64,000 nt of DNA, from contig JANYDA010000036.1 in NCBI GenBank assembly GCA_025360005.1, positions 1 through 64,000 of the forward strand. The letters run 5' to 3'. Of this stretch, positions 718-21,633 are shown one piece after another. This DNA comes from Fibrobacteria bacterium. Lineage in GTDB: Bacteria; Fibrobacterota; Fibrobacteria; UBA11236. The position numbers and the translations under genes were made by a program. Below the pieces are notes generated by a model. The model did not search any database. It had not been told where the DNA came from and worked only from the letters and a program-made list of their open reading frames with translations. Every line of letters starts with the position of its first letter. The stretch's first letter is position 1.

Positions 718-3700
718 ATGAAAGTCCCCACCCTTGCCGGACTCCTGCTCGCTGCCGGTGCCCTTCAGATTTTCCCGGGTATCCCATCTCAAGCCTCGCC
801 CCTGGCGCATATCGGGGGCAGCCCCGGAGCTTTTGGCGAAGGCGCGGTTGAAACCCGGGGCAATGCCGCATTCCCCCGTTCCCAGGACCCTGGAATGCCC
901 GGGAAGACTTCCGCCTTGCCGGGCCCGCTGTGCCTGCGCATCCCGGATCAATACCTTCCTTTGGGCATCGATACGCCCATCCCCCGGTTCGCCTGGACCT
1001 GGCCCGCGGCCTTGCGGGGATTCCGCCAGACCGCCTACCGGATCCTCGTTGCTTCCAACCTGGACAATCTCCGGTGGGATCTGGGCGATATCTGGGATTC
1101 GGGCCCGGTACCGTCGGATCGACAGAACGGCATTCCCTTCGGAGTCCCTGGCGGCGGCGATGATGGACGTGTGGTACTGGCCTATGATGGCCAAGGACCG
1201 GATGCCCTGATGATGCAGGCGGACTCGCCTTCCGGCCGGGCGAACGGAAGGTTGGTTCAGGCGGACGGAAAGCCCCTGGCGGCGGTTCCCCTGCAAAGCC
1301 ACCGGACCTATTTCGCCAAGGTCCAGGGTTGGGATTCCTCGGGCCAGGCCACGCTCTGGAGCCCGGCCCTGGAGTTCTCCACCGCCTTGCTGGCGGGCGA
1401 GCTTCCCGCCGGAAAGTGGATCCGCCATGCCGCCGACGGCAACCGCAGCGCCCAGTTCCGCAAGGAATTCACCCTGCCCGCCGACAAGACCGTGGCCAAG
1501 GCCGAGGTGCTGGTTTGCGGCCTGGGGCAGTCCGTCCTCTCCTTGAACGGCGCCAAGGTGGGAGCCGATGTCCTGGAACCCGGCTGGACGGACTATTCCG
1601 CCTCGGTCCTCTACGTCACCCATGACGTCACGTCCCAGGTCCTGGCGGGCCGCAATGCCCTGGGCCTGGTCCTGGGAGGCGGTTTCTATGATCCGGTCCC
1701 CGGCGGCCGGCACTTTTACCTTTCCGGGGGTACCGCCCCAGTTACGGGCTATTCCTACGGTCCCCTGAAGGCCCTCCTGGAGCTGCGCGTTACCTTCACC
1801 GACGGGACCGGACAATCGGTCCTCAGCGATGCCACCTGGAAAACCATCGCCGGTCCTACCACCTTGGCCAATATCTACGGCTCCGAGGATTACGATGCGC
1901 GCCTGGAGACCCCGGGGTGGGACAGAGCGGGCTTCAACGATGCGGCCTGGGCCGCCGCCGCCGAGACCGCGGCGCCTCCGGGGCCCCTGGAATCCCAGAA
2001 GCATCCGCCCCTGCGGATCCACCGGGTCCTGGAATCCGTTAAGGTCACCGAGCCCAAGGCCGGGACCTGGGTTTTCGATCTGGGGACGAATATATCCGGA
2101 CAGTTCGGCCTCACGGTCAAGGGCGCGGCGGGGGCCAAGGTAACCTTGCGGCCCGGAGAGAAGCTCAAGGCGGACGGCACGGTGGACCCCACCACGGATT
2201 CCTACTTGGTATATACCCTGAAGGGCGGAGGCGAGGAAACCTGGATGCCTCGCTTCAGCTGGTACGGATCCCGGTGGATCCAGGTCGAAGGGGCCACGCG
2301 CGATGCGGCCCGGACCGATCTGCCCGCCATCCTGGCGGCCCGGGGGGACTACATGTATTCCGCCGCCGATTCGGTGGGAGCCTTCCGGGCCGGCGATGCG
2401 CGCTACGAGGCCATCCATGGCCTGATCCTGGGGGCCATCCGCAGCAACCTGCAGCATGTCCTCACCGATTGCCCGACCGTGGAAAAGCTCGGCTGGCTGG
2501 AGGTCTCCCATCTCATGGGACCCTCCATCATGTACGAGCACGATGTGCGGACCCTGTGGACCAAGATCGCCAAGGATGCGCGGGAAGCCCAGCTGCCCAA
2601 CGGCATGGTCCCGGACATCGCCCCCGAGTATACCATCTTCGCCGGGGCCTTCCGGGATACGCCCACCTGGGGCAGCGCCCTCATCATGGATCCCTGGCTG
2701 GTCTACCAGTTCTACGGGGATTCCGCCGTCCTGGCGCAGAACTACGCGGCCATGACCGCCTATGCGGGCTACCTCGCGACCAAGGCGGCCGGGAACGTCC
2801 TCACCGCCGGCCTCGGGGACTGGGGCAGCGTGGACAATACCTCCCCGCCCAATGTAGAGACCGCCACCTATTACCAGGATCTCGTCGTGCTGGCCCAGTC
2901 CGCCGAGCTGCTGGGAAAGGCCGCCGACTCCAAGAAATACCGGGACCTGGCCCAGGCCGTTCTCATCGCCTACAATGCGAAGTTCTTTGATGCGGCCAAG
3001 AGCGCCTACCTGCCGCTCAACCAGACCAACCAGGCCATGCCCCTGCTCCTGGGCATGGTGCCGCCGGGCCAGGAGGCCAAGGTCTTCGACAACCTCCTCC
3101 AGAACATTAAGGCCAAGAACGACCATTTCACTTGCGGAGAGGTGGGCATGCGCTTCCTATTGCAGGCCCTGGCCGCCCGCGGCCGGAACGACCTGATCCA
3201 TACCCTCATCATGCAGCCGGATCATCCCAGTTATGCCCGTTTCCTGGCGCGGGGCGAGACCACCTTACCCGAATATTTCCAGGACAATGCGCGTTCCCGG
3301 AACCATGCCATGTATGGGCAAATCGTGGAGTGGTTCTACAATACCGTGGGAGGGATTTCCCCGGCCAAGCCCGGCTTCGCCGAAATCCGCATCCGGCCCG
3401 CCTTTCCCCGGGCCCTAACCTGGGCCTCTGCCTCCTATGCTTCGGTCCGCGGCGCCATCTCTTCGGATTGGAAGCTGGACTCCCTGGGCAAGCGCTTCGA
3501 TCTCAATGTCACCGTCCCCGGCAATACCCAGGCGGTGATCCACGTCCCCACCTTGCGGTATCCGCAACTGGTCGTCACGGAATCGGGCCGGCGGATCTGG
3601 GAAGGCGACGCGGCCTCGGCCCCGGTCGCCGGGATCGCCTTCGTCTCCAGGGACAGCGACTACGTGGCGTGGAGGGTCGGGGCGGGGAATTACCGGTTCA

Positions 3701-3948: not shown

Positions 3949-4132
3949 ATCACCGGCTTGATGCGGTCGATGTCCGGCTGGGAAGGTTTGCGATCCCGCC
4001 GCATCGGAAACGGTCACCATCAGTCCTTCCTGCATCCGGAAACCGGCCTGGAGAACTTCCTGTTCGACCGAGTAGCCTCCTATGGCTGGCATGGCCGGCA
4101 TCACCTGGCTCACATCGAACTGACTTTGCAGC

Positions 4133-5620
4133 CTACCGCTGTAAATCCCCGTTTTCCGGAATCCCGGGTTCATCCAACAATTGAATCGCCGAGGCGGGAC
4201 CCAAGTTGAATGGATCTTTCCATGCCTTCATGGCCCAGATAACCCGCTTGTCCGGGGTTACCTCCAGCACTTGGAAGGTTTTGGAATTATCGGGTAGATT
4301 GGAAAACCCGACGAAATTGCATACGACGGTGTTTCCGTTCTCGAGACGGCTGGCTTCCTGGGTGAGGTAAAGTTTATAGTTCGGAACGTCTTTTTGGACC
4401 AGCTCCCAAACGATTTTGCTTTGCTTGTCCAGTTCGCGCACAAAGCCCGAGCCCGCGTCCTTGCCGGTCACCAGGGTGTTTCCGTTCTTGAGCCGGACGG
4501 CGGTCCAGATGTTGGGTACGGCCGCCGACCAGATCTCCTTGCCGGTGGCGGTATCGTATTCCGCCACCTTGCTCCAATCAGAGTGGGCTGCGAGGATGGT
4601 TCCCTGCTTGGTCAGGCTTACGCGGCGGAACTGCAGGTGCGGGGTATTGGGTTTCCCGGCGGGGAGGGCTATTTGCTTCTCTATCAGTCCGGTTTTCATG
4701 TTCACGATTTTCACGTAAGGCGGAACGCCGTTCTGCACATAGAGGATCCGATCCAGCCCGAGCGGTTTGGCGGCATGGATTTCCGTGCCGGCAGGGGCGT
4801 CGAAGTTCCAGATGACGCGTTTGTCCGGCGTGATCACGCTTACTCCTTTGAGGCGGGAGAAAACGATGTTCCCGTTGGAACACAGGGTGGCGTCGCCCAG
4901 CTCCCCGTTGGCGGGCATGGTATAGGACCAATCGATTTTCCCGCCTTTCACGATGTACATGGACTGGTTGGCGAAGGTGGCGTTCTGCCATTCGCCGACA
5001 TATAGAAAGGGGTGTAGGCCGGGAGTGGTATCCACCGGTGCAGGTTGCATTTTCACTTTCAAATCAGTCCGGCTTCCGGAAACCGTTTCCACCGCCTTTT
5101 TAAACCCGGCTCTTTCAAAAGTAAGGATGGCCGCGGCTGAGGAGGCGGAGCCTTTGGAAAGGCCGGAGGATCCCGGCTCGGAAGCGAAGTCGAGGGCTGC
5201 GCCGCGCGATCCGATTGCGGAGAGGAGCGGGGCCAAGCGCCTCCCATCCGCGGCGAAGAAACCCTGGGCGGCGAAGAAGCCCGCCCTGCGCCCGCGCAAG
5301 TTCAGGTAATCGGACCCGGGATCATATCTAAGGGGTGTGCGGCGAAATCCCGGCGTGAGGATGTGCGTGGATCCGTCCGTAGTCAGGCTGAATCCGCCTT
5401 CCCGATCCGTATAGGTCGCATGGGCGGTATCGATGGCCACCTTGACCCGATAGAGCGGAACACCGGACCCGGAATCGACAACTATGCCTTGCAGGATATC
5501 CCCGGCGGCGCAGGACCAACTCGCCAGCAGCAAGGGAAGCCACCGAAGCCAACGGTGTTGGGGCTTGAGGGAAAGGAGGCTAACGGTTGTAACGGCTTCT
5601 GAAGGCATCCAGGGGTGCAT
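4133..5620 (-). CDS. Secreted PQQ-like beta-propeller protein with carboxypeptidase-regulatory-like domain
   Basis: A 495-residue exported protein. After a signal peptide (hydrophobic stretch about 27-40, ending SCAAG), residues ~40-90 resemble a CarboxypepD_reg/CNA-B beta-sandwich (GIVVDSGSGVPLYRVKVAI). The rest (~200-485) has propeller blades with repeated I-x-W/GxxIW and NGNTLV patterns, as in PQQ-enzyme-like or arylsulfotransferase-like propellers. No catalytic residues could be assigned, so it may be an oxidoreductase relative or only a binding scaffold. The ATG at 5620 is preceded by AAGGA eight bases upstream. The C-terminus ends in a natural-looking IQLLDEPG tail and lacks the module seen on its neighbours. 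It is divergent from the copper oxidase gene. Confidence 0.72.
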   Translation of the reverse strand: MHPWMPSEAVTTVSLLSLKPQHRWLRWLPLLLASWSCAAGDILQGIVVDSGSGVPLYRVKVAIDTAHATYTDREGGFSLTTDGSTHILTPGFRRTPLRYDPGSDYLNLRGRRAGFFAAQGFFAADGRRLAPLLSAIGSRGAALDFASEPGSSGLSKGSASSAAAILTFERAGFKKAVETVSGSRTDLKVKMQPAPVDTTPGLHPFLYVGEWQNATFANQSMYIVKGGKIDWSYTMPANGELGDATLCSNGNIVFSRLKGVSVITPDKRVIWNFDAPAGTEIHAAKPLGLDRILYVQNGVPPYVKIVNMKTGLIEKQIALPAGKPNTPHLQFRRVSLTKQGTILAAHSDWSKVAEYDTATGKEIWSAAVPNIWTAVRLKNGNTLVTGKDAGSGFVRELDKQSKIVWELVQKDVPNYKLYLTQEASRLENGNTVVCNFVGFSNLPDNSKTFQVLEVTPDKRVIWAMKAWKDPFNLGPASAIQLLDEPGIPENGDLQR

Positions 5621-6009: not shown

Positions 6010-9000
6010 ATGCAAAAGATATTCTTCCAGGTAATCTTGTGCGCAGCCGCGGTTTTCGCGCAACCGGGGACCAGTACTCCGGTTTTCAAGAACGACCGTG
6101 CCGGATCCGGATCCAGTCGGGATCTGTTGGGCCGCAAAGAAAAATCCCCTTCCTTCACCGCGAAGGCGGGGAAGGCGAAGCCGCCGCAGGTCGGCGCTTG
6201 CCAAGAATCCGCGGTGGTCCTTTCCGATGCTTGCGCGGGGCAATCCTTTGGAGACCGGCCGCTATTCAAAGATGATTTCCGGGAAGGGGGCCTGGCGGCC
6301 TGGACCCCGGCCGAAGGGTTCTGGAACCTTAGCGCTTCCCCGCTGTCGAATACTCGGGCGCTCCGTTCCGATTCGGGCGGCATGAGCACCGTTTTCGCGG
6401 GCCGGGATGATTGGGGAAACTATACCGTCGAGGGCACGGTGACTTTTGAGAAGGGATGGGGCGAAGCGGGATTGCTGGGACGCGTTCAGGGGGGGCATCA
6501 CTATTACGAGCTCGCCTTGGGTACGGATGATCAAGGCCGCAAGGGATGGCTGATCCGTCTGCGCCACCATGAGCATATCATGACCTTGGCGTCCGGCCGG
6601 TTTGAATATGCGGCGGGTAAAAGCTATTCGCTCCGTTTTGATCTGCGCGGCCAGCGGTTGCGCGGGTGGATAGCGGAGCCGGGCGCTTCGGAATACCGGC
6701 TATTGGGCGAGGCCAAGGATGCTGCCTGGTCCCAAGGCGCGATTGGGCTGCACAGCGAAGGCGCTTCCGCCCGGTTTACCGCGCTATCGGTCACGGGGAC
6801 GGCGGCCGCCGCAGCGACCGGCCCCTGGGGTCCAAAAATAACGTTGCGGGATATCTCGGGGACTTTTCCGGGAATGCCCGATGGCGGCTGGTGGGTGACT
6901 CCGATCCATGCCAACCTGATGCCGGCTACCGGCAAGGTGCTGATTACCGGCTGGGGAAGACGGGATCCGGTAAGTTGCGACAAGGCCGGGGGCGGCGCGC
7001 GCAAGAACGGCACCACTTTCATATTGGATCCGGCTTCCTTGACGCCGGATACGGCGCGGACGATATACATCCAACCCATCAATGAGCAGAATCAGCAGGC
7101 ATCGGAAGTGCTCTACTGCGCCGGCCACAACACGCTCGCGGATGGGCGGATCTTTTTCAGCGGCGGATCGCATTACACCAATCTCGGCGGCATCGGCGGA
7201 GGCGAAGTGGAAGACGGGGTCAACTACGCGCGCATCTTCGATCCGGCGGCCGGTTCCTTCGCGCGCATTACCCAGCCTATGGAGGGAGGACCGGTGGGCT
7301 TGCGCGGGGTGAAATGGTATCCCACCCATCTGCTGCTGCCGGACGGCACCACCTTGATAACCGGAGGGTTCAAGCAATGTTGCGAGACCCCTAACGATTG
7401 GAATCTTTCCGCGGAGATTTTCGATCCCGGCAAGCTGATGGCCGGCAGCGATCCCTGGAACGTGATCGTCCAGCATGAAGAAGGCAATCCGGACATGGCT
7501 CCCACGCGCGGTTATACCAATCTGTTCTTGCTTCCGCAACCGGTTTCCGCGGCGATGGCGGGCGGTATCGATCGTCCCATCGCCATCTTTGCGGGCGCGG
7601 GGAAGGTTCTGCTTTTCAACCAAGGCCCGGGCCTTATGGCCGCCCAGCGCTTCTTCGCGCGGCCCAATGCGGTTGTGCCCAGCCCGGCTACCGTGGAGAA
7701 GGGGGAAGGCGCTTCCGGAGCCATGCTTTCCGACGGCAGGTTGACCTTCCTGGGCGGCAGCGCCGACGGTACCACGGCGGAGAAATTCCACATCTATGAT
7801 CCTTCGGCGGATACCTGGACCCAGTTTTCCCTGGGCATCTCCCGCCATTTCGGCAACAACGTGCTTTTGCCGGATGGTACCATCCTCGCCATAAACGGAT
7901 ACAAGCTGAACGCGACCTTTATCGGGGACGTACGGCAGCCCCAGATCATCGATCCCATCACCCGCACGTTCACGACCTTGCCGGCATGGGACAACGACGT
8001 GCTGGAGCGGGGCTACCACAGTTTTTCGGTGTTGCTCAAGGACGGCCGCATCCTGATCGGCGGCGGCACGGCGGCGGACTATGCGGTGGCCTGCGAAAGG
8101 GCCGATGCCCGGATATTTTCCCCGCCCTATCTTACCGCCGGCGCGCGCCCCATTCCCGCGAACATCTCCGATGGCCAGATCCTGAACGTGGGTGGACGGC
8201 CCATCACCGTGAAGTACAGCGGCGGCGCAGTCAGGTCGGCGCGCGGGGCCGTCCTCATGGCGCCCACATCGGATACGCACGCCTTCGACATGGGCCAGCG
8301 CTACGTGCCGCTGCTGCAGGGTTCTCCTTCCGCGGGGACCTTGACCTTGACGCCGCCGCCCAATTCCTCGGTGGCGCCTCCGGGAGAATACCTGCTCTTC
8401 CTGATCAGCGGCGCCTCCACTCCATCGGTGGGAGTGCACGTGCATTTGCGCCAGCTCCCATCCCCCTGGATCGGCGGCGATATCGGCATAACGGGCTTTC
8501 CCGGCAGCGCCGTGGAGGCTTCCGGCAAATTCACCGTACGGGGTTCCGGGAGCGATATCTGGGGGACGGCGGATCAATTCCAATTCGTGAGCCGCCCCAT
8601 CAACGGGGACGGTTCCCTCACGGCGCGCATCACCGGTCCAAGCAACACCAACGCCTGGGCCAAAGCCGGGGTGATGATCCGTGAAAGCGCGGCTCCCGGA
8701 TCGAGGCATGCCATGATGATCCTTTCGGCGGCTTCCGGCCTGGCCTTCCAGCGCCGCCTCCAGACCGCCGGGGTCTCCGTCAATACCGGTGCGGCCTTGA
8801 ATAGCCGCACTTGGGTGAGACTGGCCCGCGCAGGCAATCTTTTCACCGCTTACGCGTCGACCAACGGCGTCGCATGGGATGTCATCGGAAGCGCGAACAT
8901 CGCCATGCCGGCGGGAGCGCTCATGGGCCTGGTGGTCACCAGCCATAACAACGGGGCCGTATCGCAGGCGGATTTCCAGAATGTCACCGCGCTGGAGTGA
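6010..9000 (+). CDS. Secreted galactose-oxidase/glyoxal-oxidase-like copper radical oxidase with extra lectin-like domains
   Basis: A 996-residue exported protein (signal peptide MQKIFFQVILCAAAVFAQ). Residues ~75-265 look like a concanavalin-type or DUF1080-like domain. Residues ~280-690 are a Kelch propeller. An E-set domain of the galactose-oxidase type (DUF1929) follows to ~825, then a DUF1349-like beta-sandwich to the end. All five residues of a copper radical site are present: Cys370 (YCAGH) and Tyr437 (WYPT) for the Cys-Tyr cofactor, Tyr669-His670 (GYHS) and His757 (DTHAF). The WYPT and CAGH forms resemble glyoxal oxidase/GlxA more than fungal galactose oxidase. It would oxidise a primary alcohol or aldehyde to make H2O2; the substrate is unknown. 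The start is supported by GGGAAAGGA. Confidence 0.85.
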   Translation: MQKIFFQVILCAAAVFAQPGTSTPVFKNDRAGSGSSRDLLGRKEKSPSFTAKAGKAKPPQVGACQESAVVLSDACAGQSFGDRPLFKDDFREGGLAAWTPAEGFWNLSASPLSNTRALRSDSGGMSTVFAGRDDWGNYTVEGTVTFEKGWGEAGLLGRVQGGHHYYELALGTDDQGRKGWLIRLRHHEHIMTLASGRFEYAAGKSYSLRFDLRGQRLRGWIAEPGASEYRLLGEAKDAAWSQGAIGLHSEGASARFTALSVTGTAAAAATGPWGPKITLRDISGTFPGMPDGGWWVTPIHANLMPATGKVLITGWGRRDPVSCDKAGGGARKNGTTFILDPASLTPDTARTIYIQPINEQNQQASEVLYCAGHNTLADGRIFFSGGSHYTNLGGIGGGEVEDGVNYARIFDPAAGSFARITQPMEGGPVGLRGVKWYPTHLLLPDGTTLITGGFKQCCETPNDWNLSAEIFDPGKLMAGSDPWNVIVQHEEGNPDMAPTRGYTNLFLLPQPVSAAMAGGIDRPIAIFAGAGKVLLFNQGPGLMAAQRFFARPNAVVPSPATVEKGEGASGAMLSDGRLTFLGGSADGTTAEKFHIYDPSADTWTQFSLGISRHFGNNVLLPDGTILAINGYKLNATFIGDVRQPQIIDPITRTFTTLPAWDNDVLERGYHSFSVLLKDGRILIGGGTAADYAVACERADARIFSPPYLTAGARPIPANISDGQILNVGGRPITVKYSGGAVRSARGAVLMAPTSDTHAFDMGQRYVPLLQGSPSAGTLTLTPPPNSSVAPPGEYLLFLISGASTPSVGVHVHLRQLPSPWIGGDIGITGFPGSAVEASGKFTVRGSGSDIWGTADQFQFVSRPINGDGSLTARITGPSNTNAWAKAGVMIRESAAPGSRHAMMILSAASGLAFQRRLQTAGVSVNTGAALNSRTWVRLARAGNLFTAYASTNGVAWDVIGSANIAMPAGALMGLVVTSHNNGAVSQADFQNVTALE

Positions 9001-9010: not shown

Positions 9011-11041
9011 TTAAGGCAGCCAGGGCAGACGAATGGTTTGCGATCCGGATACGGTCCGGAAGCGCAGGAAAAGGACCCCGCGCGCCCATCCGGAAGCGTC
9101 GATGGAAACCTCTCCCCGGGGATTTTGGAAGCCCGCCATCCGGGTTCCCGCCGCGGTGAAGATCGCGGCTTCGGTGACCTGGCCGGGAGCGGGGAACGTG
9201 AGCGTCAGTCCGCGGGCGGCAATCCGGCATCTCACCGTTTCCGATCGCGTCCCCGGCTTCCGTGCGGGGATTCCCGTGCCGCCGCAACCCGACTGGGAGT
9301 TTTTCCATCCCACGCCCGCGTGCGTGTCCGCCCAGGCGGCGATGGCTCCCGGCATCTGGCAGAGCGCATTGCCGTCCAGTTCCACCTTGATCCCCGCGGG
9401 TAACTTGGCGACTTCGCGGGGAAGCGCCGCCAACCGGTTCGCTCCCAGGTCCAAGGAGTTCAGGCTGTCCAGATAGGCGATATCAGGAGGCAAGTCGGTC
9501 AGGTTTTTGCCGCGCAGGTTGAGGGCGATCACGCGCCCGCCGGCATTGCGCGTAGCGACGGCGCCGACGGCGACACCCAGGGAATTTGCCTTGAGGATGG
9601 CCGCCACGCTCAGGGAGTCCCGCTGGCGCGGCTCGGTCAGGGGAAAACCGTAGAAATGCAAGGCGCCTACGCCGTTGCGGTTGAGTACCAGAGGTTCCGG
9701 GGGCACTTCCGCATGCCCCAGGAAGCTGATGGCGGTGATGCCGGCGGCGGCCGCGGACAATGCCAGCTTCACCCTGGATCCGGAAACCGATCCCGCCGTC
9801 ACCTTGGCGTTACCTCCAGTCAATTCGAATTCGTTCTGCGAGCCTTCGTTCCAGCTGAGGCTGTCGAAAGCGTTTTTCATGAACAATGTGATTTCCCGGT
9901 CTCCGCTGGCTTCCGCGAACCGGATCGCGGGCGGTTCGATGTCGTCCCCGTCCACGCCGTAGTAGTCCCGGGCCACCAGGCGGTAGATGTTGTTGCCCAT
10001 CAATTCATAACCGCCGGGAAACGGGTAATGGCACACGCTTCCCGCATCATGCTTTTGCGCGGACATGGACATGTTCTCCACGTTGGGCAGCTCTTGCGCC
10101 AACTGGCGCTCGGCCTCCAGGATCCGGGCCATTTCCGGCAGCGGGTTCTTGCAACCGTTGCGCAACTGGAAGAGGTAAATCCTTTCCGTGCCGGGATAAT
10201 CGGCCAGCCAGCCCTGACGCAAAGAGATGAAGGCGGATTTGTAGTCGGCCGTGGCCGTGGTGGAATTGTTCTCTCCCTGCACCCAGAAGATTCCCCGTAC
10301 CTTGCCGGTTAACCCGGTGGCCTTGAGGCGCCGCAGGAGCCGGCCGTAATTCGTCGCCGTGTCCGACGGGTTCACGTCGTTCCGTTCGAAAAAAACGATG
10401 GGTTTTCCGCTATGGTTGCCGTTGAAGATGGCGACGGGGATCTTTGCGTTGTCCACAATCTGGCGGGCCATGCGCAATTCCCATTGCCCGGTGTTGGCCA
10501 CCGAATACATATCGTTGTCCCCCTGCCCCGCGTTCCAATCGGTATAGTAGATGGTGGGATTGCTGGATCCGTAAACGCGGATGTACGGATTGGCGTTGGC
10601 CTTAGCGCTGGTGCCGTCGAAGCTGTGGGACTCCGCGTTGGACTGGCCTTGGATTATGAACACGTCGCCGGCGACCACGGAATCGGCGCCGCCCAGGATG
10701 GTTTCCGCGGCGCCGTTGAAGCCGATGATCTGGAACCGGTAACTTGCAAGTTCCGCCTTGATGCGGTAGGCCAGCGAGAATGCGGCGGTATTTCCGGTGA
10801 AGACAAGCTTCTGCGCCGCCATGGGCAAGGCGGAACCGTTGCGATAGGCTTTGATGCGGATCTCCTGGTAGTCGGCTCCGCTTTTATTGACGGAACCCCG
10901 GATGACCACGTCCCCGGAATCGTTGGCCTCGCGCGCATAGAGGCGGTTCTTGACGGGAACGTCCTGGAAGGTGACTTGGGCTGGGGCGACCCGGCAAATA
11001 AAGAGGGGGAGGAAGGTAAAAGCAATTAATATTCTGCGCAA
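9011..11041 (-). CDS. Secreted sialate-O-acetylesterase-like esterase with leucine-rich repeats
   Basis: A 676-residue exported protein. Residues ~125-355 carry SASA-type SGNH hydrolase features: GQSN with Ser134 as likely nucleophile, and Asp332/His338 in DAGSVCHYPF as the likely rest of the triad. Residues ~490-580 contain a few leucine-rich repeats (LNSLDLGANRLAALP). The last ~75 residues are a C-terminal module like that of other exoenzymes here (AAGTRMAGF, then GVLFLRF). The family removes acetyl groups from sugars, for example acetylated pectin or xylan; the exact substrate is inferred. The start is a TTG at 11041 preceded by GGAGGAGA. It is the last gene of the minus-strand run and converges on the copper oxidase gene, with only 10 bases between the stop codons. 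Confidence 0.8.
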   Translation of the reverse strand: MRRILIAFTFLPLFICRVAPAQVTFQDVPVKNRLYAREANDSGDVVIRGSVNKSGADYQEIRIKAYRNGSALPMAAQKLVFTGNTAAFSLAYRIKAELASYRFQIIGFNGAAETILGGADSVVAGDVFIIQGQSNAESHSFDGTSAKANANPYIRVYGSSNPTIYYTDWNAGQGDNDMYSVANTGQWELRMARQIVDNAKIPVAIFNGNHSGKPIVFFERNDVNPSDTATNYGRLLRRLKATGLTGKVRGIFWVQGENNSTTATADYKSAFISLRQGWLADYPGTERIYLFQLRNGCKNPLPEMARILEAERQLAQELPNVENMSMSAQKHDAGSVCHYPFPGGYELMGNNIYRLVARDYYGVDGDDIEPPAIRFAEASGDREITLFMKNAFDSLSWNEGSQNEFELTGGNAKVTAGSVSGSRVKLALSAAAAGITAISFLGHAEVPPEPLVLNRNGVGALHFYGFPLTEPRQRDSLSVAAILKANSLGVAVGAVATRNAGGRVIALNLRGKNLTDLPPDIAYLDSLNSLDLGANRLAALPREVAKLPAGIKVELDGNALCQMPGAIAAWADTHAGVGWKNSQSGCGGTGIPARKPGTRSETVRCRIAARGLTLTFPAPGQVTEAAIFTAAGTRMAGFQNPRGEVSIDASGWARGVLFLRFRTVSGSQTIRLPWLP

Positions 11042-12516: not shown

Positions 12517-13983
12517 TCAGCGCGGGACGGAGAAGGCGTGCCGGACCGATGCGAGCTTGCGGCCCGAAAGATCGAAAATGGCTAGGTCGGATAGCCCACC
12601 GGCTTGGGCCTTGGGTTGCAGGCCCCGCGCGGGACGCAGGCCCACGGAGAGCTTGGTTTCAAAGGGCCCTAGGTCCGGAGCCGATCCTTCAAAGGCGAGC
12701 TTCACATCCAATCCCTTGTCGATAAGATCGCTGCCCGGGGCGAGCTTCAGGAAGGGGATGTCGGGCAGGCTTCCATCGGCCTGTCTGGGTCCATCGAGCC
12801 CGGTCGGATCCACGCTCCGGAAATCCTCGTCCGAAACCGTGACGGGCAGGGTCCAGGAGTTCCGGGACTCGTCGATCCCGGCATTGTAGTCGATGAGTTT
12901 TTGCCCTTTGTAGGAGATATTGTTCTTCAGGATTCCTACCGTGGTGAATTTCCCGTCCTTGTAGCCCACCATCCTGAAATTGGCCGAGTCGTTGGCATAT
13001 CCGATATTGTTGTACCAATAAATGGGTCCGGGATGGTAATTGGCGTGGAAACCGGAAGCGAAGTTGGAGTAGGCCAGGCAGAACCGTACCGTATGCATGG
13101 GCGCGATGGCAGGCGGCCTGATGGCGGGAACATTATAGCCCCCCGCCTTAAAGCCCTTGCCGTCCCCGATGTGGTTCCGGGTTCCCGGTTCGTATCCGTT
13201 GTACCAGGACCAGCAATTCTCGATAAGGACCGCCTCTTGGGCCGCAATCAGATCGAAGCCATCGTCGGTGTTGTACCAGGCCCGGCATCCCCGGAATACA
13301 TTGCCGGTGTGTCCGGCGCCGATATGGCAACCGAACCCATCCGCATTGCCTCCCACCAGTCCGCGGCCGGATTTTGAATCGAAATTGTCATGGGAATCAC
13401 AGTTCAAAGCCAGATTGTTTCCGCCGTTGGAGATGAACAATCCGGGGCCCATGATATTGTGCATGTTGAGGCGTTCGAAGATATTATCGCTGCCTGAATT
13501 CCAGATGCACCAGGATTCCTTTTCCGTGGTCAGGATCTGCGGCACGTTCTTGAGCTCCAAGCCTTTGAGATGGAGATAGCTGCCCGTGGTGCGCAGGCCG
13601 GTAATGCGGGCCTGCGCCGTCATCCCGATGAAGTCGAATACCGGAATCTCGCCCGGATAGGCCCAGTATTTGATTCGGTTGCCTGCCGCGCCGCTCTTGT
13701 CCAGCAGCACCCCGTTGGCGGCGGTGGCCGTCTTGAACTGGTAGATCCCGCCCCGGAAATAAACGGTGTCGCCCGCTTTGGCGGCCGTTTGGCCGCGCGC
13801 CATGGTTGCAAAGGGCTTATCCTTGCTTCCGCCATTGGCATTGTCCCCATCGGGAGCCACGTAGTAGGTGGCGGCTTGCGCGGAAAAAAACAGCAGATGA
13901 AGGAGCGATAGAACGGTAAGGGGCCGGGTGCCGGCATACAGCGCGTTGCCGGCGGCGGGCCTGGAGACATGCCGGGTTTCCAT
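12517..13983 (-). CDS. Secreted PL9-like pectate lyase (right-handed beta-helix)
   Basis: A 488-residue exported protein predicted to cleave homogalacturonan or rhamnogalacturonan by beta-elimination. Motifs typical of PL9 are clear: NADGFGCH, GCRAWYNTDDGFDL, ENCWSWYNG and GDGKGFKAGG. Lys279 in the last motif is the expected catalytic base, and the Asp residues of DGF and DDGFD are the expected calcium ligands. An upstream in-frame codon exists, but the ATG at 13983 shares its A with the TGA stop of the preceding gene (TGATG), which indicates translational coupling. The C-terminal module stops unusually early, soon after FDLSGRKL, so it may be shortened. Confidence 0.87.
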   Translation of the reverse strand: METRHVSRPAAGNALYAGTRPLTVLSLLHLLFFSAQAATYYVAPDGDNANGGSKDKPFATMARGQTAAKAGDTVYFRGGIYQFKTATAANGVLLDKSGAAGNRIKYWAYPGEIPVFDFIGMTAQARITGLRTTGSYLHLKGLELKNVPQILTTEKESWCIWNSGSDNIFERLNMHNIMGPGLFISNGGNNLALNCDSHDNFDSKSGRGLVGGNADGFGCHIGAGHTGNVFRGCRAWYNTDDGFDLIAAQEAVLIENCWSWYNGYEPGTRNHIGDGKGFKAGGYNVPAIRPPAIAPMHTVRFCLAYSNFASGFHANYHPGPIYWYNNIGYANDSANFRMVGYKDGKFTTVGILKNNISYKGQKLIDYNAGIDESRNSWTLPVTVSDEDFRSVDPTGLDGPRQADGSLPDIPFLKLAPGSDLIDKGLDVKLAFEGSAPDLGPFETKLSVGLRPARGLQPKAQAGGLSDLAIFDLSGRKLASVRHAFSVPR

Positions 13984-15122
13984 CAAAGTCCGGTCCACTT
14001 GACGCGGGCCACGGTGGCGCCGGATTGCCAGCTTATCAGGCACAGGCCCTTGCGGGCAAGCGCAACGTATTGCGGCACGCCTGCGGCTACGGTCATGCGC
14101 GCCAGGATCTTGCCGGAGGGATCCGCAACCTCCAAGTTACCCCCCTGGGGCGAACGGAAGGAGAAGCCGGCCGGTTCCCGCGTCATATCCACGTTACGGG
14201 GAAGGGCATCGGCCGGAGCGGCCACGCCGGTGGCGGCGCAGGCCGCCGGATTGTCCTTCACGAAATAGGTGCGATAGGCGGCCTTGGACTTATCCATGCA
14301 GCCTTCCAGATCCAGGACTTCGATTTTCCGGAACTTGTAGGGATGGCTTTCCGCCTGGATGGCGATATAGCCGCTCTTGAGCGGCGTGCCGTCCGGGGGA
14401 GTATTGGCCGGCGGATTGGATACGGCGCCTGCCCAATAGACCGGATGATAGTAGGTCAAGGTGGGGGTGCCGGTGGGGCTGTTCCCGATATAGTGGCGGA
14501 TGATGGAGTCTCCCATCACCGCCGCGGAAACCCAGGTCCAGACGCCGGGGGCGGGGCGGAAATTCGTAGTCGCCGAAAAGCAATGGTTAAGGTTCACGGT
14601 CCCTCCCGTGGGCACGGTATAAAATGCGGTCCCGGGCGTGCACAGGTTCATGTTGCTGTTGGGATCCGCGCCTGTGTTGCTTGCGCCCAGCAATTGGGCC
14701 TCCAGGCTGATGGGGAAATCCTGGTTCAAGGTCATGCTGGCCATGGATTGGGAGTGCAGCATCAGGCCGTTGTTTTGGAGCGCCCAACCCGGGCCCCCGG
14801 TTACCTGCTTGTCGCCCACCTGGTATTCCGACCTTAGCAGGTAATACGAATAGGTCCGGGTCTTGTTTATGGCATGCCCGAATTCGCCGTTGAAGGTGCC
14901 CCATCCGGTATAGTCCACGCTGAGGATCCCGTCCGCCACCTTGAACGTGTTGTTGAAATTCTCATTCAACGGATGCTTGGCGAACTTGAGGTCCCAATCC
15001 TTCATATCCGTGCCGTTGAAGAGCTGCACCCAAGCCGAGTCTTCCGCCTGCGAGACGGTCGCTCCGGCCAGCAGCGCTGCCGTGATGAGGTTTCCCAAGA
15101 CCTTGGTTCGATTATTCCGCAT
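13983..15122 (-). CDS. Secreted DUF1080 / 3-keto-disaccharide hydrolase domain protein
   Basis: A 379-residue exported protein with signal peptide (to SQAED) and one PF06439-type beta-sandwich (WVQLFNGTDMKDWDLKF at the start, GWGTFNGEFGH, NNGLMLHSQS, then YIAIQAESHPYKFRKIEVLDL at the end). Some members of this family hydrolyse glycosides after oxidation to the 3-keto sugar; others only bind. A C-terminal module (ADPSGKILARMTV, then GLCLISW) follows. Two in-frame ATGs lie six bases apart (GGGATGGCTATGCGG). I chose the second, because GAAGGG is then correctly spaced. The stop codon overlaps the ATG of the PL9 gene. Confidence 0.82.
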   Translation of the reverse strand: MRNNRTKVLGNLITAALLAGATVSQAEDSAWVQLFNGTDMKDWDLKFAKHPLNENFNNTFKVADGILSVDYTGWGTFNGEFGHAINKTRTYSYYLLRSEYQVGDKQVTGGPGWALQNNGLMLHSQSMASMTLNQDFPISLEAQLLGASNTGADPNSNMNLCTPGTAFYTVPTGGTVNLNHCFSATTNFRPAPGVWTWVSAAVMGDSIIRHYIGNSPTGTPTLTYYHPVYWAGAVSNPPANTPPDGTPLKSGYIAIQAESHPYKFRKIEVLDLEGCMDKSKAAYRTYFVKDNPAACAATGVAAPADALPRNVDMTREPAGFSFRSPQGGNLEVADPSGKILARMTVAAGVPQYVALARKGLCLISWQSGATVARVKWTGL

Positions 15123-15232: not shown

Positions 15233-16897
15233 TTAGCGGGAAAGGAGCCTTACCCGTAACATCCCCGTTACCTGACCGGCTTGGCCGGGATCCAGATCCA
15301 GGAACCGCGGTTGCGCTCCCTGGCCGCGCCGCCATGTCCAGACCCTGATTCCCCGCGTGTCGAACGCCTCCGCGCGGACGGCGCCTGCCGGGATTTCCAG
15401 CCTGCGGGCCAACCCCAGGTTCCGCCAGGACCAGACCTCCGGAATGGATGCCGCTGCGCCCGCGCCCGGGAAGCGGGTCCCGATCGCGTCCGCGGGGCCG
15501 ATATAATCCAAGCGCACCAGGTTGCCGTGGCCGGCGTTCCTGGGATAGGAGCCGTTGTCGCCCCAGTCCAGGAAATAGAAGGCCCCGTCCGGACCGACTT
15601 TCAGATCGATGGGGTTCTTGATGGGGTTGTCCGTCGTCTGATCCCAGAAGCGTTTGACCGCCACCACGCCGCCGGTATCGTCCAATTGCACGGCATGGAT
15701 GAGGCTGCGCGAGAAATCGAATATAAAAAGGTGATGATCGTAATACTTGGGGATCTTATTGGGGGACGTGACAGCGGGATCCGAATTATAGACGGGCCCC
15801 AGCATGGAGGTGTTGGCGGAGCCGCTTGCGAAGACGGGGAAGGCCGTGCCGGTGGCGTTGTAAGGGTACCAGATCAAAGAGGGGCGGGCCGGAGGCAGGT
15901 CCCTGATGCCGGTGTTGTTGGAAGAGATGTTCTGCAGGGCGTTGGGCTGATAGAGCGCGCCGCCGGTACTGGTCTCGTAATTCCATTCATGGTAGCAGAA
16001 GTTGTTGCCCACGCAGTAGGGCCAGCCGTAGTAGCCCGGGGTCTTGGCGATATTGACTTCATCGTACCCGCGCGGGCCCTTGTTGGGATCGTCCGCGGTG
16101 GCGTTGGGTCCGGGTTCCGCCTCGAACAGCCACCCGGTCTTGGCATCGATGGTGATGCGGAAGGGATGGCGATGGCCCATGGTGTAGATTTCCGGCCGCG
16201 TCTTGTCGGTGCCGGGCGGAAAAAGGTTGCCCGCCGGGATGGTATAGGTGCCGTTGGCTTCCGGATGGATGCGCAGAACCTTGCCGCGCAGGTCGTTGCT
16301 GTTGGCCGCGGAACGCTGCGCATCGTAATTGGGGCGCTTGGGATCGCGGGGGGAATAGCCCATGGCGGGAGAGGAGAAAAAGTTGTTGGTATTGTCCGCC
16401 AGGCCGATGTACAGGTCGCCCTGCTTGCCGAAGGCGAGACAACCGGTATTGTGCTCGTCGCTGGACGTGAGGGAATAGGGAACGCTCAGCATGTCCACGC
16501 GCGAGGCGGGATCGAGGTTGCCGTTGGCCAGGGCGGTAAAGCGCGCGACTACCAAGGCCTGGCTGGGCTGCAAGGTCCCGAACAGCAGGAAGACATGGCG
16601 GTTGGCGGCGAAGTCCGGATCCAGGACGATGGAATGGAGGCCGTCCTCGCGCACGTCGGAAACGGTCAAGGTGGCGGCGAGGGTGGCCGTTTTGGTCTGG
16701 GGATCGAACAGCTTGATGGTCCCGGATTTATTGAGCACGTAAATGCGGCCGTCCGGAAGGAAAGCTATCTGGGTGGGGTTGTTCAGGTTGTCCAGCAACA
16801 CCGTGGTCCGGAAAAGGCTGCGCGCGGGTTGTGCCGATGCTCCGGCCGCAAAAGCGACCAGGAGGCAGAACGACAACAAACCTGATTTGCCTAGCAT
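15233..16897 (-). CDS. Secreted PQQ-dependent sugar dehydrogenase (glucose/sorbosone dehydrogenase family)
   Basis: A 554-residue exported propeller enzyme of the GSDH family, predicted to oxidise sugars with PQQ in the periplasm or outside. Supporting motifs run in family order: NPTQIAFLPDGRIYVLNKSG, DGLHSIVLDPDF, GCLAFGKQGDLYIGLADN, GKVLRIHPEANG, EIYTMGHRHPFRITID, YDEVNIAKTPGYYGWPYC and IDLKVGPDGAFYFLDWG. A signal peptide ends near ASAQ. A C-terminal module (DTRGIRVWTW, then GMLRVRLLSR) follows. The ATG at 16897 is preceded by GGGAGAG. It lies 110 bases upstream of the DUF1080 gene in the same run, which suggests the two act in sequence. No PQQ biosynthesis genes are in the window. Confidence 0.85.
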   Translation of the reverse strand: MLGKSGLLSFCLLVAFAAGASAQPARSLFRTTVLLDNLNNPTQIAFLPDGRIYVLNKSGTIKLFDPQTKTATLAATLTVSDVREDGLHSIVLDPDFAANRHVFLLFGTLQPSQALVVARFTALANGNLDPASRVDMLSVPYSLTSSDEHNTGCLAFGKQGDLYIGLADNTNNFFSSPAMGYSPRDPKRPNYDAQRSAANSNDLRGKVLRIHPEANGTYTIPAGNLFPPGTDKTRPEIYTMGHRHPFRITIDAKTGWLFEAEPGPNATADDPNKGPRGYDEVNIAKTPGYYGWPYCVGNNFCYHEWNYETSTGGALYQPNALQNISSNNTGIRDLPPARPSLIWYPYNATGTAFPVFASGSANTSMLGPVYNSDPAVTSPNKIPKYYDHHLFIFDFSRSLIHAVQLDDTGGVVAVKRFWDQTTDNPIKNPIDLKVGPDGAFYFLDWGDNGSYPRNAGHGNLVRLDYIGPADAIGTRFPGAGAAASIPEVWSWRNLGLARRLEIPAGAVRAEAFDTRGIRVWTWRRGQGAQPRFLDLDPGQAGQVTGMLRVRLLSR

Positions 16898-17118
16898 AAT
16901 CTCTCCCACCGTAAATTTAATAGCCCGGATGAAAAGCCGCCCTGGATAGGCGGCCGGAAATGCCGGTTTCCATGGCCTTTTTTTCCTGTGATTCCTGGGA
17001 GGCGCATGAACCAAGGCTCAAGGGGCTCAACGCGGGGAGTTTCTTTGTGAGGAGAATCGCCGTGTCCCCGGGTTCTCCGGGAAATGCTCGCCCGGCGCGC
17101 GGCGCAGGCGGAGGGATT

Positions 17119-19068
17119 TCATGGATCCAGGCCGGATAGGAAAAGCCTGCGGGTTTCGGTTCCGGCCGGCGTGCGGATTTGGGCCAGGCAAAGGCCTTTG
17201 CCGAATCCTTGCAGGGTATAGACGGCGGGTCCCGGGCCATGGAATTCGGCCAGGCGGTTGCCGCGGAAATCAGTGAGGCGCACGGTATGCGGACCCGCAT
17301 CGCGGATGCTCAGGCTGTTCCCGTTCCAGGCCGTGCCCAATCGGGTTTCCGACCGGCGCGGACCGGTCCGCGATCCCATGCCGTCCGTACGCGCTCCGTC
17401 CAGGATCACCAGGGAAATGCCATGACGGGGCAAAGTGAATGCTAAGGTAACTTTCCCGTTAACATTGGCCGACATCCCCGGAGGGGTAAGGGTTTCCAGC
17501 GCCATCGCCGCCTGCAATTGGGCCGTCTGCGCCGCCGTAGGGGTTTGCGGGCCGCCCATCTTCAACCAGGCCGAGTACGCGTTGCTATGGGTGCTGTCCA
17601 TACGGTAATGCGTTACCTTGACTTGGGCGGGAAACGTCGCTGGCACGCTCACGTTGAGCGTTATGGAGGCCGGCAGGGAAGGCGCCAAATCATCATGATA
17701 GTTCCATATCAAGGCCATCACGCGATCGCCGTCTTTTACCGCCATGCCGTCGACGTCGGCCGCGCCGCGTACGCCGTTGGTGAGGATGTCGGCCAAGCCG
17801 CGCGCGCCGCTGCTCTTGAGCGGAATCCGCTGGCCCTGTAATTTGCCCAGCATCTTGAACGCTTCCAGCACGGGTTTGTGGATGCCGTTGTTGGCCAACT
17901 CGCGGTATCCGGAAAAGTACGGGCTGCCCGGGAAGGTGAAGGCCCAGGTGACAAGCCCCTTGAGGTTTACCTTCAGGCTGTCGGCCAATTCCAGGCTATG
18001 CGCCATCATGGCCACTTCGTAGGCGCCGTAGGCAGGCACGTTGCGGTAGCCGTCCGCAGGGACTTTGCTGGCCGGGCACGCGGCGCAGCCGTCCGGATCG
18101 GCCTCGCCGATCACGATGGGCTTGGCGCGGAACTGGGGATAGGAATGGACGGTGGCGAAGGCGTCGCGATGATTGCGCAATTGGCTTCCCAGGTCCATGC
18201 GGATGTTCGCGCCGTTCATGGCCACGCCGCCCTTGGCATGGAAGGTGACCATATCCAGGCGCGTGCCGGTTTTCTGGGTGACGGCGTTGATGCCCGTTGC
18301 GCAATGGTCCAGGAATTCCTTCAACATCCCCACGCTTCCCCGGGTCACTTCCGGACCGCCCAGTACGGCCTTATCCATCACCCCGTGCAGGGCCCCTTCC
18401 GTATAGTCGAAGAGCTTGAAGTATTCGGCGTGGGTTCCGTGCCAATAACCGATGTCGGGTTCGTTCCATAGCTGCCAAAGCCAGGACGTATCGGACCCCG
18501 GATAGCGCGTCTTGCTGTGCTCGGCCCAGGCGCCGATGAGCCCGGCCCATTTGGAATAATCGTTGGGCGGATAGAAACTCCCGCCGTCCAGGACATAGGT
18601 GCCGGAGGGCTGATAGGGATCGGGTTTGCTGGAAAGGGCCTTGGGCATGAAGGCGATTTCCGCCAAGGGGAGGTTTCCCGCGGCCGTGATGCCGTCCATG
18701 ATGCCGTCCAGCAAGGTCCAATCGTACACCGGCTGGCCTTGGGCGTTCTCGGTGTACACGTTGGTGGATCCCCATTTGAGCGCGGGCTTCCCGTCCCCGG
18801 TGTTCAACAGGAAATGCGTGCGGATATGGACCGGAAAGGCGTTGAGGGCCTTGATGTCCTTGAGGAGCCGCTTGCCTTCCGGCATGGTGGTGTAGTTGTC
18901 CTCGTCATAGCCGTAATAGGGCCAGACGGGATTCAGGGGGGTTCCGGCGGCGGTACCGTCCACGCTGATGTCTATCGGCTGGGACTGCGCGCGCGCCGTC
19001 CGCGGCGAAACTTGCCCCAACAGGATCAACCCCATCCCCACGTACCCAAAATATCCAAAATTGCGCAT
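17119..19068 (-). CDS. Secreted GH39-like glycoside hydrolase
   Basis: A 649-residue exported enzyme. The (beta/alpha)8 barrel (~25-440) has Glu203 in WNEPD as likely acid/base and Glu322 in VIGEADPDG as likely nucleophile, as in GH39 beta-xylosidase and related enzymes. A beta-sandwich follows (~450-570). The last ~75 residues are a module of the local type (LTDFRGNRLAEF, then GKGLCLAQIR). It could act on xylan or on acidic side chains; specificity is not visible. The start has the same double-ATG arrangement as the DUF1080 gene (GGGATGGCGATGCGC); the second ATG is better spaced from the GGGGCGGG upstream. Confidence 0.84.
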   Translation of the reverse strand: MRNFGYFGYVGMGLILLGQVSPRTARAQSQPIDISVDGTAAGTPLNPVWPYYGYDEDNYTTMPEGKRLLKDIKALNAFPVHIRTHFLLNTGDGKPALKWGSTNVYTENAQGQPVYDWTLLDGIMDGITAAGNLPLAEIAFMPKALSSKPDPYQPSGTYVLDGGSFYPPNDYSKWAGLIGAWAEHSKTRYPGSDTSWLWQLWNEPDIGYWHGTHAEYFKLFDYTEGALHGVMDKAVLGGPEVTRGSVGMLKEFLDHCATGINAVTQKTGTRLDMVTFHAKGGVAMNGANIRMDLGSQLRNHRDAFATVHSYPQFRAKPIVIGEADPDGCAACPASKVPADGYRNVPAYGAYEVAMMAHSLELADSLKVNLKGLVTWAFTFPGSPYFSGYRELANNGIHKPVLEAFKMLGKLQGQRIPLKSSGARGLADILTNGVRGAADVDGMAVKDGDRVMALIWNYHDDLAPSLPASITLNVSVPATFPAQVKVTHYRMDSTHSNAYSAWLKMGGPQTPTAAQTAQLQAAMALETLTPPGMSANVNGKVTLAFTLPRHGISLVILDGARTDGMGSRTGPRRSETRLGTAWNGNSLSIRDAGPHTVRLTDFRGNRLAEFHGPGPAVYTLQGFGKGLCLAQIRTPAGTETRRLFLSGLDP

Positions 19069-19335
19069 CGCCATCCCGCCCCAAACGCCTTCGTCCACTT
19101 CGGCTAAGTAAGTAAAGGTAATGCTTCCCGGCGCGCTCCGCACGCCTCCGGCGGGAAATGGGCGCCCGCTTCCGCTATTGGGAAGGTTTCTCGCGGATTC
19201 GCGGCCTGAGAACGGCCTTCCCAAAAAACGCGGCATTGGGGTAACGGGAGGCGATCCAACGCACGCCATCCCGAACCCAAAATGAAAACCGTTGCCGGCA
19301 CCCGTTCCAAGCGCGGCGGCGTGTGAAAAGAACCG

Positions 19336-21633
19336 TTACAAATTAGACAAAAGTGAAATCCGGCCGCGCAGAAGCGTTCCATCCCGGCCGCGGAACTCAT
19401 ACGCATAGACCGGTTCCCGCAGACCTTGGGCCGTGGGCCGGGACCAACTCGCTGAACCCGCCTGGTAGCTGGAGCGGAAGGCGGCGCGCCCGCGTAGATC
19501 GAATACGGCGAGTTCGCCGGAAGCCAGGCGGCCATTGGGCATCATGGCGAAACCGTCCCGGCGCAGGGAGAAGCGCAAATCGTCGCGGGGCTGGGCCTGC
19601 GATACGGGGGCGTGGGGTGCGATGGACACGGCATCGTAAGCGGGGGTGCAAGGTTTGGCGGCGCTGGCGGCGATGCCCGCGCTGCCGAAGGCGCTAGTGG
19701 CGGATGAATCCACGTCCCGGTAGGTGTTCCATAGGGCGGTCAGGCCGGCCGGCTTGCCGCTGATTTCGGAAAGCGCCACCAAGGCCTGGAGCCGCACATG
19801 CCCGTGATCATCATTCACGGAGCAACGATCGCTGATTGCTTTGGCGGAAACCGAGGTGCGCGGCATCGCGCGAAGGGCATTGCGGCGCACGCCCACGGCG
19901 GGATGGAGCAAAAGCCGTGAGAGGATGGGGTTCCATTTGGCGGAATCGTTATCCAGCCTTCCCAGCCCGGAAAGCGTCCATAGCGCGTGCACCACCCGGG
20001 GATTGTTCCCAACATCGTCCACGGTCTTATCGTTGGCGAGGATATCCTCCAGCAGGGTTCCCAATTCGGGCGTATAGCCTTTGCCGATCAGCAAGCGCTG
20101 GGCGTGCAGCCGCCAGAGCAGATTGGGATTGCCGAATACCGCCACCAATTGCTGGGTGGTGGCGGAGGCGAGGTTCAGCACCGGCTCGGTCTTCTCGTCG
20201 GCCGGCGTTACGCGATAGACGCGGCTGCGCGTCTTGACGCGCAAGCTGTTCTCCCAGGCGCCGCCGGGACCGCGCGGATCGGCGGGATTGTGCAGGAAAA
20301 GGTAGTTGTACCAGTCGAGGATCCAGAGGGCGCCATCCGGTCCGGTGCGGGCGCGGATGGGAGCGACCCAGGCATCCTTGGACGCGAAGATGTTGGCGCG
20401 CTCGGGACCGGGCAGGCGGATCGATTTCCAGGTGCTTCCCGTAACATTTCCGTTACCGCTCTCCACCAGGCTGTCTTGGTTGCAAAGCTTGCTGGCCCCT
20501 TCGCAATTGAAAGCGAAGCGGTTCCAGTATTTCTTGGGGAACAGGCGGGAGGTATAGAAGTCCATGCCGGATACGGCCGTGGTCCCGGAGGTGAATTGCC
20601 CTTGCGGGTTCTTGCCCGTGGAGCCTTCCCACAGGTACCGATCGCCGGTGATGGGGTAGAATACATTGGCCGGATTTCCGGCGGGCGCTCCCGGCATGGC
20701 GGTGCGTATGTCGATGGCGTAAACCCCTTGGCGGGCTGCATGGTTGATATGCGGCGATCCGGTGGCGCCGGATTGGAAGAGCTGGCCGTCCTCCATCTGG
20801 CCGATGCCGTGCGCGTTGGCCGGCCCCTCGTCCCAGGATTGGAATTCCGTCTTGGCGTAGCCCAGCGCCGTATGGCGGAAACGCCACATGCGGCCATGAC
20901 TGCAATCGACGCCGCTGGCGGTGCAGCTGTTGTAGCCGCTATGCCCGTAGATCCAATTGTCCAGGCCGTACATCAAGCTGTTGATGCCGCCGTGGGTATC
21001 GAAGTTGGCGTTGGAACCCATGCCGGAGAAAAGGATCTGCGGCGTGCCCGCGGTATCGTTATGGTTGGGGAAGAAGACCAGGTACGGCACCATGCTCACC
21101 ACGATGCCGCCGTTCACCACTTCGATTCCCTGCGGCATGTTCAGGCCGTCCCGGAACACGGTAAGCTTGTCCATCACCTTGTCGCCGTCGGTGTCTTCCA
21201 GGATGATGATGCGATCGGTTCCGCCCACGAATTTCTGATCCGTGATGGAGCCGCTGGCGGGACGGATGATGTTGGGATAGCTCTTGGGTTCCACGCCCCA
21301 CAAGCGTCCCCGTTCATCGAAAGTGAAGTCCTGCAAATAGGCGATGGCCCCGGGGTTCTCTTCCGAGGCCCACAGCTCCGCCTTCAATCCGGGCGGCGTC
21401 ACGATGCAATTCACGGATTGCGCCGGAGTCATGGGATTCTGGATGGTGCTGAGCGGAAAATCCGTCAGGGGGTTGGGAACGATCCTGAATTGGTCCCAAT
21501 GATCGGTATCAGGGGCTTGATAACGGCCTATGGTGGAAACCGTGCAATCGCCCGTTTTCTGGATCGGCGTGGCGGCTTCGCTGAGACCGAACGCCACGGA
21601 TATGAAAATCGAAAATCTTACCAAACCACTCAT
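19336..21633 (-). CDS. Secreted membrane-bound-dehydrogenase-like propeller protein with HEAT-like region
   Basis: A 765-residue exported protein. Residues ~60-480 match the N-terminal propeller of the putative membrane-bound dehydrogenase family common in Planctomycetes and Verrucomicrobia (GLKAELWASEENPGAIAYL, RIIILEDTDGDKVMDKLTVF, GLNMPQGIEVV, TGPDGALWILDWYN). An alpha-helical HEAT-like part follows (~500-660). The CxxCH heme-binding domain often found after it is absent; instead the protein ends in a local C-terminal module (VFDLRGRAAFRS). Redox activity is therefore uncertain. The ATG at 21633 has GGAG five bases upstream. It is the first gene of a seven-gene minus-strand run. Confidence 0.75.
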   Translation of the reverse strand: MSGLVRFSIFISVAFGLSEAATPIQKTGDCTVSTIGRYQAPDTDHWDQFRIVPNPLTDFPLSTIQNPMTPAQSVNCIVTPPGLKAELWASEENPGAIAYLQDFTFDERGRLWGVEPKSYPNIIRPASGSITDQKFVGGTDRIIILEDTDGDKVMDKLTVFRDGLNMPQGIEVVNGGIVVSMVPYLVFFPNHNDTAGTPQILFSGMGSNANFDTHGGINSLMYGLDNWIYGHSGYNSCTASGVDCSHGRMWRFRHTALGYAKTEFQSWDEGPANAHGIGQMEDGQLFQSGATGSPHINHAARQGVYAIDIRTAMPGAPAGNPANVFYPITGDRYLWEGSTGKNPQGQFTSGTTAVSGMDFYTSRLFPKKYWNRFAFNCEGASKLCNQDSLVESGNGNVTGSTWKSIRLPGPERANIFASKDAWVAPIRARTGPDGALWILDWYNYLFLHNPADPRGPGGAWENSLRVKTRSRVYRVTPADEKTEPVLNLASATTQQLVAVFGNPNLLWRLHAQRLLIGKGYTPELGTLLEDILANDKTVDDVGNNPRVVHALWTLSGLGRLDNDSAKWNPILSRLLLHPAVGVRRNALRAMPRTSVSAKAISDRCSVNDDHGHVRLQALVALSEISGKPAGLTALWNTYRDVDSSATSAFGSAGIAASAAKPCTPAYDAVSIAPHAPVSQAQPRDDLRFSLRRDGFAMMPNGRLASGELAVFDLRGRAAFRSSYQAGSASWSRPTAQGLREPVYAYEFRGRDGTLLRGRISLLSNL

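Follow-up and report, generated by a model that had tools for sequence, protein, structure and literature searches.

Oxidative and hydrolytic carbohydrate enzymes in an exported-enzyme neighbourhood of a Fibrobacteria genome

The cleavage of 3-keto glycosides is a recently recognised alternative to the classical glycoside hydrolases. The enzymes described as forming 3-keto substrates are flavin GMC, Gfo/Idh/MocA or LacABC enzymes (PMC9007349, PMC10628242, PMC11239390), with LacABC in this role in PMC9007349, flavin oxidoreductases in PMC4650693 and PMC10646112, and Gfo/Idh/MocA enzymes in PMC11239390. Other proteins of the DUF1080 family (PF06439) have been linked to xanthan, being reported as endo-xanthanase (PMC9007349) or proposed to hydrolyse the xanthan backbone (PMC5673643). 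Characterised enzymes of the soluble glucose dehydrogenase (sGDH) fold and of family AA12 oxidise C1, from which a hydride is taken to give lactones (PMC6881810). No description of C3 oxidation by enzymes of the GSDH fold was found in the literature.

The window analysed here, a stretch of 64,000 nucleotides, spans positions 1-64000 of contig C26. The genome, from an uncultured member of the Fibrobacteria, measures 4.98 Mb and is 98% complete. A sequence-only reading of this DNA had described a 21-kb locus encoding a secreted, SusC/SusD-free pathway that oxidises sugars and then cleaves them. In a new profile search, all ten of the genes it named were present where it had placed them, each scoring above a Pfam cut-off. 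The plus strand carries a GH78 alpha-L-rhamnosidase with a signal-like N-terminus (718-3948; PF17389, 270.8 bits, plus N, ConA-like and C domains) and a copper radical oxidase of the galactose oxidase/GlxA type (6010-9000; PF09118). On the minus strand, a Mala_s_1-like beta-propeller (4133-5620; PF22701, 65.5 bits against a cut-off of 27.5) lies between these two. Seven co-directional genes then run on the minus strand from a DUF7133 propeller of the PVC type (19336-21633; PF23500, 223.9 bits; TIGR02604, 133 bits against 122.2) through a GH39 glycoside hydrolase (17119-19068; PF01229, 144.5 bits), a GSDH-family six-bladed propeller that is predicted to be a PQQ aldose (C1) dehydrogenase (15233-16897; PF07995, 128.4 bits against 25), a DUF1080 protein with a signal peptide and a C-terminal extension (13983-15122; PF06439, 62.2 bits against 26.8) and a Pel9A/PelN-like PL9 pectate lyase (12517-13983; PF22842, 233 bits) to a sugar-efflux (SetB)-like MFS transporter (11190-12419; PF07690, 115.2 bits) and a SASA-type acetylesterase-like protein (9011-11041; PF03629, 38.8 bits). 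The Mala_s_1-like and DUF7133 proteins are the two further propellers of the earlier description, and the DUF1080 gene does follow the PQQ dehydrogenase gene in the same run. The minus-strand gene dnaE (DNA polymerase III alpha, 21834-25394) is outside the function of the cluster.

The PL9, GH78, GH39 and esterase assignments are sound at the family level, and the PL9 together with the GH78 points to pectin as the probable target. More specific models score below their cut-offs, both for the PL9 (PelN, NF041899, 443 bits against 740) and for the MFS protein, for which the best NCBIfam model is sugar efflux TIGR00899 (200.7 bits against 522). The short C-terminal tail of the PL9 (window 12517-12640) looks cut short when set beside the tails of its neighbours; a frameshift behind it was sought by eye and none was established. 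The esterase has a leucine-rich-repeat-like segment (residues 504-568, window 9338-9532, minus strand) preceding its tail, and its weak NCBIfam matches to effector families of plant pathogens reflect the repeats only and have no further meaning. A GH81-like protein (PF17652, 176.7 bits) is encoded apart from the cluster at window 47160-49535.

The copper radical oxidase retains the full ligand set of its family: C370, Y437, Y669, H670 and H757 provide the Cys-Tyr cofactor, the axial Tyr and the two His. All of these were aligned to galactose oxidase except Y437, which was placed by motif. Galactose oxidases in the PDB match it at E 2.5e-26. No match to the oxidase core above about 33% was found within the genus. 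Many other open reading frames of the genus contain the C-terminal DUF1349-like module (residues 815-994, window 8452-8991), some of them twice, with identities reaching 52%.

In the GSDH protein, H149 and R243 align with the catalytic His144 and Arg228 of sGDH, and their equivalents are invariant in 8 of 8 orthologues. These residues were placed by alignment rather than in three dimensions, as the structure model, built from three sequences, has a pLDDT of 47.6. The protein scores below the cut-off of the NCBIfam subfamily TIGR03606 (79.4 bits against 434.55). Elsewhere in the loci examined, an SMP-30/gluconolactonase-like gene is present between a GSDH and a DUF1080 gene (L082, 8225-14110), as expected if GSDH makes lactones.

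The AlphaFold model of the DUF1080 protein (pLDDT 84.2) matches the solved 3-keto-glycoside eliminase/hydratases and BT2157 (9fbe, 8rr2, 8v31, 8tda and 3osd) with Z scores of 17.5-18.7 in a fold search, the top rows of which are the uncharacterised DUF1080 structures 4jqt and 3hbk. The predicted fold supports the assignment as a 3-keto-glycoside enzyme and is not proof of it, because of the xanthan activities reported or proposed for other PF06439 proteins. Residues E141, Q143 and H180 do not vary among 30 relatives. The subfamily has relatives in Fibrobacteria, Gemmatimonadota, Bacteroidota, Balneolaceae and Cellvibrio. Among all neighbours in 80 named loci of the subfamily there is no conserved oxidoreductase partner, the gene being mostly alone amid housekeeping genes. 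By blastp to the window protein, a GSDH gene is within 8 kb in 2 of the 80, both from this Fibrobacteria family, and in Agaribacillus, additional to these two, Pfam places a gene for a GSDH-cytochrome c fusion after the DUF1080 gene. Thirteen of the 80 have a DUF7133-type propeller and four a cytochrome c, one of them fused to GSDH. Sister-genus orthologues had seemed to lie between Gfo/Idh oxidoreductases; the flanking genes are in fact adenylosuccinate synthetase (three loci) and homoserine dehydrogenase (one). Sulfatases flank the gene in two Bacteroidota loci, with no wider pattern. The window DUF1080 has its nearest paralogue (about 53%) in L084 (9801-13068), between alginate-lyase-like and xylose-isomerase-like TIM-barrel (PF01261) genes, with a divergent GSDH nearby.

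Signal-peptide-like N-termini are predicted on most of the cluster products, in agreement with the claim that the enzymes are secreted. Type IX secretion is likely in this genome, since the translocon gene SprA is encoded in it. With the T9SS sorting-domain model TIGR04183, the esterase alone of the cluster products scores, weakly (13.6 bits against a cut-off of 23). The C-terminal extensions of the DUF1080 subfamily, which are present in its Fibrobacteria members and absent from the Bacteroidota and Gemmatimonadota relatives, would fit sorting tails. SusD (PF14322) was found in none of four Fibrobacteria genomes, namely this one and three others of the class, with the positive control matching in Bacteroides. 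As one of the four, from a large genus (g4), belongs to another family, the absence is probably a trait of the class. The locus is thus SusD-free as had been claimed, and this does not set it apart.

The relatives do not share the gene order of the 21-kb locus. A GSDH orthologue is found near dnaE in three congeners (L087, L088 and L089), the dnaE orthologues being 78-83% identical: the order is dnaE-GSDH in G001, dnaE-DUF7133-DUF7133-GSDH in G003 and dnaE-orf-DUF7133-GSDH-GH39 in G005, where the GH39 gene is at a contig end. DUF7133 is therefore between dnaE and GSDH in two of the three. None of the DUF1080, PL9, MFS, esterase, oxidase or GH78 genes is alongside the GSDH orthologue in these congeners. 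From these comparisons, dnaE-DUF7133-GSDH is the conserved core, giving GSDH a conserved genomic position in the genus, and those six genes are additions in this genome. A lack of conserved order, which had been named beforehand as evidence against the proposed locus, is thus largely what is seen for the cluster as a whole, and the core alone recurs.

Nor is the minus-strand run a clear operon. With re-estimated starts, the gaps are about 268 bp between DUF7133 and GH39, about 222 bp between GH39 and GSDH and about 111 bp between GSDH and DUF1080, and DUF1080/PL9 is the only pair to abut among the junctions from DUF7133 to PL9. Because of these gaps a single operon is not established, and scans of the run for sigma-70-like promoters and terminators performed no better than on shuffled sequences. 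It is possible that one transcript covers the run.

The genes pqqB, C, D and E are present on contig C65, each above its equivalog cut-off, in a locus where they follow a quinoprotein-like gene (L115, 3846-8994). Contamination was considered for this contig and is ruled out: from position 9822 onward its right side shows synteny with four congeners, with full-length neighbours at 50-91%. The pqq cassette therefore belongs to this genome, in which it looks like a gain. PqqE was found over the cut-off in none of ten relatives, though in nine of the ten the GSDH matches number seven or more. Either these relatives depend on scavenged PQQ, or their GSDH proteins have some other role.

Taken as a whole, the locus is probably a grouping of exported carbohydrate-active enzymes that is peculiar to this genome and was built up around the older dnaE-DUF7133-GSDH locus of the genus, with oxidative and hydrolytic enzymes working in parallel. 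Outside the cell, the most likely targets of the PL9, GH78, GH39 and esterase are pectic glycans resembling rhamnogalacturonan, with type IX secretion as the putative export route. The GSDH, charged with PQQ from the cell's own pqq genes, would most likely convert the freed reducing sugars to lactones by oxidation at C1; the copper radical oxidase would oxidise an alcohol or aldehyde and generate peroxide; and the DUF1080 protein would most likely cleave or hydrate 3-keto glycosides. The two sets of enzymes would thus act side by side rather than in an obligate chain of oxidation and then cleavage. That chain, as proposed by the sequence-only reading, is partly supported, by its gene identities, catalytic residues, signal-like N-termini and predicted DUF1080 fold, and finds no support in gene order or in chemistry. 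The chemistry does not join, because sGDH-fold enzymes oxidise C1 and the described makers of 3-keto substrates belong to other families. The locus is real and moderately interesting, a fairly ordinary exported carbohydrate-enzyme neighbourhood in a little-known lineage.

An unlikely alternative is that there is no shared pathway at all, exported enzymes simply gathering in islands in which GSDH, DUF1080 and the carbohydrate-active enzymes happen to meet. Both families are greatly expanded, with 23 DUF1080 and 34 GSDH loci in this genome and up to 53 DUF1080 loci in a congener, and most gaps in the cluster exceed 100 bp. Among the DUF1080 loci listed for this genome and congeners G002 and G004 together, 16 of 77 have a GSDH gene within 3 kb where 3.9 are expected, a figure obtained for this pair of families alone and to be read knowing that exported genes cluster generally, as PL9 paralogues also lie beside GSDH genes (L103 and L108). 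In this genome alone the excess among loci listed is borderline (3 pairs against 1.0 expected, P 0.08). Against mere crowding, the enrichment among loci listed is marked in both G002 (6 against 1.35, P 0.0018) and G004 (7 against 1.56, P 0.0007), and 15 of the 16 listed pairs are co-directional, with both gene orders represented. Some functional coupling of GSDH and DUF1080 is plausible because their adjacency in the genus is about four-fold above chance. This also tells against the preferred reading of parallel action, as a four-fold and mostly co-directional adjacency favours some coupling over crowding.

The strongest form of coupling, that the PQQ dehydrogenase makes 3-keto glycosides outside the cell and the adjoining DUF1080 protein cleaves them, is quite unlikely. 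Besides the adjacency and its co-directional bias, it has in its favour that some nine or more separate changes, on branches with good support in a tree of 47 GSDH proteins, are needed to account for pairing, that the predicted DUF1080 fold matches those of 3-keto-glycoside eliminase/hydratases, and that a DUF1080 gene precedes the GSDH-cytochrome c fusion of Agaribacillus. The Gluconate_2-dh3 subunit (PF13618) of LacABC-type enzymes was found in none of nine genomes including this one, with the positive control matching in Caulobacter. The seven Gfo/Idh/MocA proteins of this genome have no signal peptide and look cytoplasmic, and all are encoded on contigs other than that of the cluster, so that no such gene is beside the window DUF1080. 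Another extracytoplasmic oxidant would therefore be needed. Set against this are the C1 chemistry of characterised sGDH-fold enzymes (PMC6881810), the lack of PqqE over the cut-off in the ten relatives, which carry both families, and the phylogeny. In the tree the window GSDH groups with seven orthologues, with full support, and of the eight it is the only one beside DUF1080, the other seven being unpaired. Of the genomes sampled, this one alone has the window pair; it is pairing as such that recurs. Within the same genome, a co-directional ThuA-GSDH-DUF1080 run followed by a weak cytochrome-c-like match (L085, 7205-11508) makes a neater candidate for an oxidative locus than the one in the window.

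More broadly, the GSDH-fold PQQ dehydrogenases of the lineage might be extracytoplasmic glycoside 3-dehydrogenases that feed secreted DUF1080 proteins, in place of LacABC, GMC and Gfo/Idh/MocA enzymes. This is offered as a speculation with little chance of being right. If true, it would explain the repeated, independent and co-directional pairing of the two genes, as well as why neither a LacABC-type subunit nor an exported Gfo/Idh/MocA protein is present. The question matters for a lineage whose genomes carry as many as 53 DUF1080 loci and, among the LacABC-type and Gfo/Idh/MocA candidates examined, no obvious extracytoplasmic maker of their substrate. If the co-located GSDH makes 3-keto sugars, the PQQ propeller family would gain a new reaction; otherwise the locus clearly warns against reading the co-location of an oxidoreductase and DUF1080 as a pathway where gene order is not conserved.

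It is highly improbable that the GSDH and DUF7133 propellers are carbohydrate-binding or structural proteins rather than dehydrogenases, like the hedgehog-interacting protein (HHIP) of the same fold family: this would suit a PF07995 match that covers only positions 1-233 of 332, the presence of HHIP among the PDB matches of the GSDH, the GSDH-rich relatives lacking PqqE over the cut-off, and the absence of a CxxCH haem motif from all ten cluster proteins, DUF7133 included, but the invariant catalytic His and Arg equivalents and the pqqBCDE genes of this genome speak against it.

Comparison with described systems places each part of the locus near a known enzyme and at some distance from it. 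The oxidase shares the Cys-Tyr, axial Tyr and two His ligands of galactose oxidase and Streptomyces GlxA, and differs in scoring far below the GlxA equivalog cut-off (93.6 bits against 800) and in its extra C-terminal module. The window GSDH has the His144 and Arg228 equivalents of the Acinetobacter soluble glucose dehydrogenase (1c9u) and the fungal AA12 pyranose dehydrogenase (PMC6881810), whereas it has a His at the Asn229 equivalent and a C-terminal half that is unlike sGDH, with weak similarity to TIGR02604/DUF7133. The DUF1080 model resembles the 3-keto-glycoside eliminase/hydratases BT2157 and BT2/AL2 over about 200 residues; the identity is, however, 17-18%, the protein belongs to a separate subfamily in which C161 and C181 are invariant, and its gene has no Gfo/Idh/MocA neighbour. 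The 3'-ketolactose pathway of Caulobacter crescentus, with LacABC and DUF1080 (PMC9007349), is similar in that a signal-peptide-bearing DUF1080 protein is encoded near a sugar dehydrogenase. That dehydrogenase is the membrane-bound LacABC, whereas here it is a GSDH-fold protein in a genome without PF13618. Finally, the grouping of carbohydrate-active enzymes with transport recalls the polysaccharide utilisation loci of Bacteroidota, with the difference that in this genome, which is without SusD, an MFS exporter-like protein is found instead.
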